NCBI GenBank assembly: GCA_027619225.1
Contig: JAQCFW010000010.1
Coordinates: forward strand, 1 to 64,000
Length of the DNA: 64,000 bases
Reading direction: 5' to 3'
Source: Bacteroidota bacterium
GTDB taxonomy: Bacteria > Bacteroidota > Bacteroidia > Flavobacteriales_D > Sanyastnellaceae
Shown here piece after piece: positions 41,765-61,523 of this stretch (position 1 is its first letter; each line of letters opens with the position of its first letter). The position numbers and the translations under genes were made by a program. Under the pieces are notes generated by a model. That model was not told the DNA's origin. It ran no database searches and was given only the letters and a program-made list of their open reading frames with translations.

Positions 41765-42633
41765 GTTTTCCCTGGACTAGCTACAAACGAATCCTTGATA
41801 AGCCAAGGATTTAACTCCTTTAGCTCCCTGTAGTTAGATCCATTTTTCAGTGCGAACTCACTCAGGTTTTCTATGCTTGCAGTGATCGCAACTTTTCTCA
41901 CTTCATGAGGAAGGTACAGGTCATTTTCAGTCAATTGAAAACCATACGTTTCCGGATGTGATAGCACCTCCTTGACAGCAAGAAGTCTATAAACATACCT
42001 TCCTGTCTCACTATTCAGGTGAAGCTCCCAATAACTATCTACTCCCTGAGCTTCTAATCTATGTTCAACGCCTGTCATACCCATATTATATGATGCCGCA
42101 GCCAACCCCCAGTTCCCGAATTTCTCATATGATTCCAGAAGGTACTGGCAGGCTGCATGCGTACTTTTCTCCACGTGATACCGTTCATCTACTGTTGAGG
42201 TTACTTCTAATTCATATTCTGGGGCAGTCTTTTTCATAAACTGCCAAAAACCACTTGCACCTGCCGGCGAAACGGCCTGGGTTAAACCACTTTCAATGAC
42301 TGCTAAATACTTAAAATCATTAGGGATGCCATGTTCTTCTAAAATAGGTTCGATTAACGGAAACCACCTTGAGGCTCTCTTTAGATAGAGAATGCTTGAG
42401 CTATGTCCATAGGTGTTTATGATCAGCTCCCTGTCCAATTTTTCTCTTACACTGAAAGATTCTGTAGGGACCTGCTCCCCCGCCAAGAATAAATATTCAG
42501 GAATGGGAGGTGAGACTACTGTACTTGGCAGGATTTTATTGACTCTTGTAGAGTCAGTATCTGGAGAGATAGCGGTTATGAACAGCACACTAGAAGCGCT
42601 GATAAGAATGGCGGGGATAAGGGAATTAGGCAT
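41728..42633 (-). CDS. Membrane-bound lytic murein transglycosylase (MltD-like)
   Basis: This 301-residue protein has an N-terminal membrane/signal segment. A family-1 SLT domain at about 90-240 has the catalytic Glu in LAVIESGLTQAVSPAGASGF and the NMGMTGVEHRL helix. The final 55 residues form a LysM-like end (LSEFALKNGSNYRELKELNP, KTYTVYFP). It cleaves peptidoglycan glycan strands to give anhydro-muropeptides. The 37-bp overlap with the convergent CoA-transferase covers its last 11 codons. MltG, 1.2 kb away, is a second transglycosylase of different fold. Confidence 0.9.
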   Translation of the reverse strand: MPNSLIPAILISASSVLFITAISPDTDSTRVNKILPSTVVSPPIPEYLFLAGEQVPTESFSVREKLDRELIINTYGHSSSILYLKRASRWFPLIEPILEEHGIPNDFKYLAVIESGLTQAVSPAGASGFWQFMKKTAPEYELEVTSTVDERYHVEKSTHAACQYLLESYEKFGNWGLAAASYNMGMTGVEHRLEAQGVDSYWELHLNSETGRYVYRLLAVKEVLSHPETYGFQLTENDLYLPHEVRKVAITASIENLSEFALKNGSNYRELKELNPWLIKDSFVASPGKTYTVYFPKTVTE

Positions 42634-60917: not shown

Positions 60918-61394
60918 ATGGCAAAATCTATTTCTCCATTAAGCGTAGGCGATTTAGCTCCGGATTTTTCTTCTACAGATTCTACCGGCACTATTCGTTC
61001 TCTGTCAGAGTTTTCAGGGTCAAAATTAGTTCTCTATTTTTATCCTAGAGACAACACCCCTGGGTGTACATCACAGGCGTGTAACCTCACCGAGAACTAC
61101 TCTGAGTTATCTAAGCACGGAATAAAAATTGTCGGAGTTAGTCCTGATTCTGAAGCAAAGCATATAAAGTTCATCAACAAGTACGATATCGCTTTCGAAC
61201 TTTTAGCTGATGAAGACAAGAGTGTACATCTGGCTTATGGAGTTTGGGCTGAGAAAAAGTTTATGGGAAAAGTATTTGACGGAACCCACAGAACGACATT
61301 CCTCATAGACGAGAACTCTAAGATTGTTGAAATTATCGCCAAACCTAAATGCACAGATCATGCCGCTGAAATACTTGCAGGATATAATCTTTAA
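60918..61394 (+). CDS. bcp: Thioredoxin-dependent thiol peroxidase (BCP/peroxiredoxin Q)
   Basis: This 158-residue protein has KLVLYFYPRDNTPGCTSQAC with peroxidatic and resolving cysteines five residues apart (CxxxxC), typical of 1-domain BCP/PrxQ. Then come GVSPDSEAKHIKFINKYDI and GTHRTTFLIDENSKIVEI. It detoxifies organic hydroperoxides and H2O2 in the cytoplasm. It is divergent from priA; recA follows after 146 bp. Confidence 0.93.
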   Translation: MAKSISPLSVGDLAPDFSSTDSTGTIRSLSEFSGSKLVLYFYPRDNTPGCTSQACNLTENYSELSKHGIKIVGVSPDSEAKHIKFINKYDIAFELLADEDKSVHLAYGVWAEKKFMGKVFDGTHRTTFLIDENSKIVEIIAKPKCTDHAAEILAGYNL

Positions 61395-61487: not shown

Positions 61488-61523
61488 ACGTAAATCCTTT
61501 ACGTACCACTATATATACCTTCG
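61488..61523 (+). promoter_or_regulatory. recA promoter with 17-bp palindrome
   Basis: ACGTAAA-TCC-TTTACGT at 61488-61504 is a perfect 7-bp inverted repeat with a 3-bp centre. It is followed 11 bp later by TACCTTCG (61516-61523), a one-mismatch copy of the TAnnTTTG -7 box. The ATG of recA is 17 bp further on. This is the position expected for a damage-response operator. Confidence 0.5.

Follow-up and report, generated by a model that had tools for sequence, protein, structure and literature searches.

The stretch of DNA analysed here (the window; positions 1 to 64,000 of contig JAQCFW010000010.1) carries a 17-bp inverted repeat, ACGTAAATCCTTTACGT, in the gap between recA and a 158-aa open reading frame whose product we take to resemble a Bcp-type peroxiredoxin (Table 1). 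The question is whether this repeat controls recA and, if so, through which regulator. The original prediction called it a perfect palindrome; the repeat is there, with 7-bp arms (ACGTAAA / TTTACGT) around a 3-base centre, and only the word "perfect" is loose, since an odd-length DNA palindrome is imperfect at its centre. Its 15-bp core, CGTAAATCCTTTACG, has the form CGTAA-N5-TTACG, and the claimed distance of 37 bp to the recA ATG was borne out when counted from the end of this core. The near-consensus -7 box proposed downstream was also recovered: TACCTTCG starts 11 bp past the end of the 17-mer and matches five of the six defined positions of TAnnTTTG.

Table 1. Features of the recA locus in the window, and the WYL gene elsewhere in the same genome.
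Feature	Position	Strand	Remark
158-aa ORF upstream of recA	60918..61394	+	ORF list
17-bp inverted repeat ACGTAAATCCTTTACGT	61488..61504	+	proposed WYL-activator binding site
15-bp core CGTAAATCCTTTACG	61489-61503		CGTAA-N5-TTACG
-7 box TACCTTCG, TAnnTTTG type	61516..61523	+	12 bp past the 15-bp core, without TTG at the usual -33 distance
recA, 351 aa	61541..62596	+	ORF matches RecA-encoding places in 36/40 relatives
WYL gene, 341 aa	G000 contig C48, 6766-7791

We evaluated the rarity of the repeat within the window. The exact word ACGTAAATCCTTTACGT occurs once, and a word search allowing up to three mismatches returned three matches against 0.19 expected, one of the three being the reverse reading of the site itself. 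Palindromes of the same architecture (7-bp arms, 3-nt centre) but of any sequence numbered three, whereas 30 dinucleotide shuffles averaged 4.3; the other two lie at 42540 and 47992 (TGACTCTTGTAGAGTCA, AAATAGACAATCTATTT). Enrichment of palindromes per se was thus ruled out. Because the count is no higher than chance, the palindrome alone is not evidence of function, and its meaning rests on comparison.

The original prediction hinged on whether close relatives carry the motif before recA, and they do. CGTAA-N5-TTACG stood exactly before recA in all 11 same-genus genomes whose recA start could be read, and mean column conservation across these 11 promoters was 0.96 within the site, 0.66 in the upstream flank and 0.82 between site and ATG. 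The shorter core GTAA-N5-TTAC was found before recA or its upstream gene in 27 of 36 genomes (our own included), directly before recA in 24 and before the upstream gene in three order-level relatives (G027, G030, G038). Near recA in the remaining nine the exact core was absent, degraded or changed (G019, G025, G028, G031, G033, G034, G035, G036, G039). Outside the order, an exact site lay within 1450 bp of recA in three of 23 class genomes that have a relative of the WYL protein described below, indicating that the link to recA belongs to certain lineages. Judged by this comparison, the palindrome counts as a recA control site kept in evolution.

Across whole genomes the motif was not enriched. 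CGTAA-N5-TTACG gave 111 forward matches against 187 for a reversed control in 41 genomes, and with loose mismatches our own genome gave 88 against 152, suggesting that the regulon is small and that most single matches are chance. Restricting the search to correctly oriented and spaced sites in 14 genus genomes yielded 29 matches (reversed control, 17), comprising nine at recA, eight linked to a WYL gene, one at G005:C1:90478 and 11 non-recurrent. The G005 site (L367) is exact and has the standard TTTG spacing, with neither recA nor a WYL gene as neighbour and no long ORF after it. In our own genome, a second exact CGTAAA-N3-TTTACG (C35:19663) falls within an ABC transporter reading frame and was taken as chance, and two further pattern matches (C26:18879, C27:13527) were rejected as lying inside reading frames. 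A spacing histogram over 395 class genomes was set aside as its pattern was too loose. The suggestion that the motif would accompany repair genes held in a hand-picked set of other genes. That set consists of 20 regions picked by hand from the genome-wide match list, with recurrent sites favoured, and serves as examples, not as a test. In order-level relatives, exact sites closely precede the genes of a Y-family polymerase, RmuC, an SbcD-like nuclease and a CoiA-like nuclease, and likewise those of one small HTH protein and one unknown protein (together L124, L120, L128, L117, L125, L127).

We next considered LexA-type repressors. As originally stated, ACGTAAATCCTTTACGT is not a classical LexA box, matching neither CTGT-N8-ACAG nor GAAC-N4-GTTC. 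PMC8565304 assigns SOS control in Bacteroidetes to repressors of the XRE-S24 type, with recA as a known target and with CTAA-N5-TTAG or GGA-N5-TCC as boxes; ACGTAAATCCTTTACGT matches neither of these. Searching with an alignment of 15 XRE-S24 proteins from relatives (A3) found a full-length protein in none of the 14 genus genomes, of which G005 and G013 gave short HTH matches only, and in none of G016, G020, G021, G031, G034 and G035. The alignment search recovered the XRE-S24 protein of G023 that PF00717 alone had missed. UmuD of our own genome (C4) was rejected as the regulator: it has no HTH part, and the umuD promoter lacks GTAA-N5-TTAC. A different palindrome, ACACAAATCATTTGTGT, lies 102 bp before the umuD start (L054, G000:C4) and is a candidate operator of yet another regulator. 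It is exact in L053 and L054, has one mismatch in L056, L057 and L058, was not found in L055, L059, L060, L061 and L062, and is followed in several umuD loci by a conserved GTAAC..CCTGTCCGC stretch.

The position of the site relative to the promoter was more informative. Against the usual -33/-7 promoter consensus, the centre of the site falls where the -33 element is expected. Among the exact-core recA promoters, the best -7 box lay 12 bp past the core in 24 of 25 and 11 bp past it in the other, with ties resolved toward the expected offset. A TTG 17-23 bp before the -7 box, the usual -33 place, was found in none of the 27 recA rows, which were drawn from 35 recA loci and include two one-mismatch matches (L023, L033) that appear accidental. 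The sites are also oriented, N5 starting with AT in most recA rows and with GT in several. Such a combination of fixed distance and orientation marks a site whose protein contacts RNA polymerase; this suggested a WYL activator, and we therefore searched for the WYL domain (PF13280).

The search found one WYL protein in our own genome (Table 1) and at least one in 34 of 40 relatives. Pfam assigned WYL and WCX domains to it and matched no HTH family, while its AlphaFold model has N-terminal helices and a wing. An alignable family starting with MPANKYALLRYRIID has 27 members (alignment A1). The closest PDB matches by sequence were DriD and PafBC, and Foldseek placed DriD best (E 2.7e-13). Superposition of the model gave Z 15.7 and rmsd 9.6 over 288 residues against 8tpk, and Z 16.7 over 191 residues against 9cu3; rows below DriD, BrxR, PafBC and CapW were Hfq/Sm and wHTH single-domain matches. 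In the WYL ssDNA sensors PafBC, DriD and SiwR, two conserved WYL arginines bind ssDNA (R211 and R214 in PafB). The equivalent of R214, R222, is invariant in the 27 rows of the protein alignment, and that of R211 is Gly219 in our protein. A single gene in the genome and a two-fold symmetric site suggest a homodimer. Two counts speak against the WYL protein as the regulator: it is present in six of the nine genomes lacking the recA site, and no WYL match was found in G009 and G010 (82% and 70% complete), which have the site.

The site is also linked to the WYL gene itself. Among the listed genome-wide sites, a WYL gene lies within about 1 kb in G014, G018, G019, G022, G023, G030 and G031, and somewhat farther away in G038. 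We then took 80 named relatives of the WYL protein, two of which were dropped for short downstream DNA, and scanned from -20 to +180 of the WYL stop. In the 78 remaining loci the site was exact in 31 and present with at most one mismatch in 45, compared with 0/78 for the reversed control, the pattern being the best of two spellings and the control a single one. TTTG stood at offset 15 in 35 of these 45 sites and TTG at offset 16 in 43, both counted without a tie rule. In our own genome the WYL gene is followed by CGTAAATAGATTGAG, 15 bases, TTTG and the gene for a 97-aa protein; CGTAAATAGATTGAG is a copy of the site whose right half is degraded, and its spacing is of the WYL type. Wherever a genus WYL gene has downstream DNA (11 cases), a copy degraded in this way precedes the same small gene, and none of the 11 is exact.

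Starting from the small protein instead, we collected 69 distinct relatives, of which 52 have the core with at most one mismatch within 130 bp upstream (control, 3/69). Of 51 small-gene promoters, 45 had their best -7 box at 11 bp, ties again going to the expected offset, and in 48 N5 started with AT when read in the direction of transcription. Seven of the 51 have a TTG at the -33 distance, an exception to its general absence. The small protein matched no Pfam family beyond chance (40 members), no NCBIfam and no PHROG, and its model is mainly helical (pLDDT 73). In L216, L220, L229, L234, L242 and L248, it is fused to a repeat-like C-terminal part (195-234 aa) that looks like TPR repeats, and a matching site lies upstream of each. 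L111-L116 contain a further small ORF (about 130-146 aa), preceded by a site of its own and often placed between the WYL gene and the small-protein gene; the one tested had no Pfam match.

We found that site and protein vary together. With STIDKD as the recognition helix, 12 of 14 exact-core sites carry A as the 3' outer base, and with STIEKD, 0 of 27 do (Fisher p 1e-8, uncorrected for phylogeny); few evolutionary events may lie behind this pattern. In four genomes of the same family with STIDKDIWAMKNE (G016, G020, G021, G024), the outer positions of the recA site are T and/or A. A wider set, with a WYL relative in 41 of 80 class genomes, includes a second subgroup, whose helices resemble SKRTIQLDLQNMRSEKLG. 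Here CGCAA-N5-TTGCG, in some cases as CGCAAATAGATTGCG, lies in the 200 bp preceding the WYL frame in seven of 11 loci (L304, L306, L307, L310, L311, L313, L314; L304 and L307 have two copies each, and G085 has it at two places), one base per arm being altered relative to the recA-type site. At recA, no site of this type was found in the second-subgroup genomes. Its place upstream of its own WYL gene makes autoregulation possible.

Taken together, we consider it probable that the palindrome is the site of a homodimeric, DriD-like WYL activator, the product of the C48 gene, which it would recruit to recA. Once activated, the protein would cover the region of the -33 element, always equally far from the -7 box, and keep RNA polymerase at a promoter without a proper -33 box of its own, and recA and the small gene beside the regulator gene would be turned up. 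From DriD and PafBC one would expect the WYL domain to bind ssDNA, which would make DNA damage the signal. The constant -7 distance, the orientation preference, the absence of a -33 TTG and the linked WYL gene point to activation rather than repression; physical binding of the WYL protein to the site is likewise inferred. The original suggestion that the site might serve another repressor is accordingly kept in part: another regulator agrees with the linkage to the WYL gene, and the spacing, the orientation and the missing TTG speak against a repressor. Similarly, of the proposed damage operator, a damage-related control site of recA survives at the level of our conclusion, and an operator in the repressor sense is probably wrong.

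Repression is nevertheless a known activity of the domain, some WYL proteins (BrxR, CapW) being repressors, and the protein could bind in this manner, block the -33 region and be released by damage. The site does cover the -33 position, where it would block sigma region 4, and the fold also resembles BrxR and CapW, although more weakly (Z about 11-12). We regard this as unlikely: the closest structures are activators, the protein has a WCX domain, spacing and orientation are fixed, and a promoter under repression should still have a usable -33 element, whereas none of the recA rows has the TTG. A third regulator or a general promoter element, with the WYL gene adjacent only through a shared operon environment, would agree with the fact that in most genomes the recA site and the WYL gene are unlinked. 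It is quite unlikely, as it leaves unexplained why the site at two unlinked places tracks the helix type of the WYL protein and why the variant site of the second subgroup precedes the WYL gene itself.

A diverged XRE-S24 box, with GTAA-N5-TTAC replacing CTAA-N5-TTAG, would share the TAA-N5-TTA geometry and a known target, recA (PMC8565304), but is very improbable. No full-length repressor was found in 14 of the 27 genomes that carry the recA site, and G028 and G039 have it with neither a WYL protein nor an exact recA site. Moreover, among 17 XRE-S24 promoters, CTAA-N5-TTAG was exact in three and GTAA-N5-TTAC occurred in none, even at one mismatch. Hardly credible is a chance palindrome or a terminator hairpin of the upstream gene. 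Palindromes are as frequent in the window as expected, yet this one is followed by no T-run, is conserved above its flank and keeps a constant position over many genera.

The WYL activator reading agrees best with DriD of Caulobacter crescentus. Both proteins have a wHTH-WYL-WCX arrangement, and our model matches DriD over its full length. According to PMC12340889, DriD sites are pseudo-palindromic, overlap a poor -35 element at a fixed distance from the -10 element, and serve to activate the neighbouring operon and not the gene of DriD itself; the site described here likewise sits over a poor -33 element at a fixed -7 distance beside the neighbouring gene. DriD has few targets, recA among them (according to PMC11804915 and PMC10693628). 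The differences are also clear. The DriD consensus is ATACGAC-N7-GTCGTAT (PMC12340889), which differs from CGTAA-N5-TTACG in sequence and in spacing; DriD acts in Proteobacteria at sigma-73 promoters; the small gene adjoining the WYL gene is unrelated as far as our searches show; and one of the two ssDNA arginines is kept. Most likely, therefore, the site works like a DriD site, yet by sequence it is neither a DriD site nor that of a DriD orthologue.

Other systems share single traits. Mycobacterial PafBC is described as a WYL/WCX activator of recA and damage genes at promoters without a normal -35 element and with fixed -10 placement; it is also a heterodimer and has a -26 motif without a palindrome, whereas our genus has a single gene per genome and its site is palindromic. 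SiwR of Mycobacterium smegmatis is, according to PMC10693628, a homodimeric WYL activator adjoining its targets, with a 19-bp imperfect palindrome between -35 and -10, and its targets there are DinB/YfiT-like metalloenzyme genes, not recA. The non-canonical LexA of Bacteroidetes shares the phylum, the recA target and an N5 palindrome with inner TAA/TTA (PMC8565304), and differs in the outer bases of its boxes and in not being found in the genus. In open-licence PMC papers we found no WYL regulator of a damage response in Bacteroidota.

A wider reading, tentative and somewhat short of an even chance, is that these proteins form a Bacteroidota branch of WYL activators with the motif (C/T)G(T/C)AA-N5-TT(A/G)C(G/A) and a LexA-independent damage response. 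This branch would be the main control of recA in Flavobacteriales lineages near our genome and would have a dedicated small effector beside the regulator ('SFxRPxGFNxYAW', perhaps a DidA-like checkpoint protein). In the streamlined genus, it would have outlived the loss of the LexA-like repressor. If so, recA in many LexA-less marine Bacteroidota would be under an ssDNA-sensing activator instead of a cleavable repressor, constituting a separate damage response in a large marine bacterial group and extending the principle of DriD and PafBC to another phylum. It would also account for the continued regulation of recA in bacteria that lack the non-canonical LexA recently described, and motif, regulator and second target would be available for direct testing.

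Among the loci collected for the WYL gene, L224 comes from a record titled Euryarchaeota archaeon isolate SP189 and holds a Flavobacteriales WYL gene at 65% identity, so that its label looks wrong; the organism labels of several loci titled Chryseobacterium gleum likewise look wrong.
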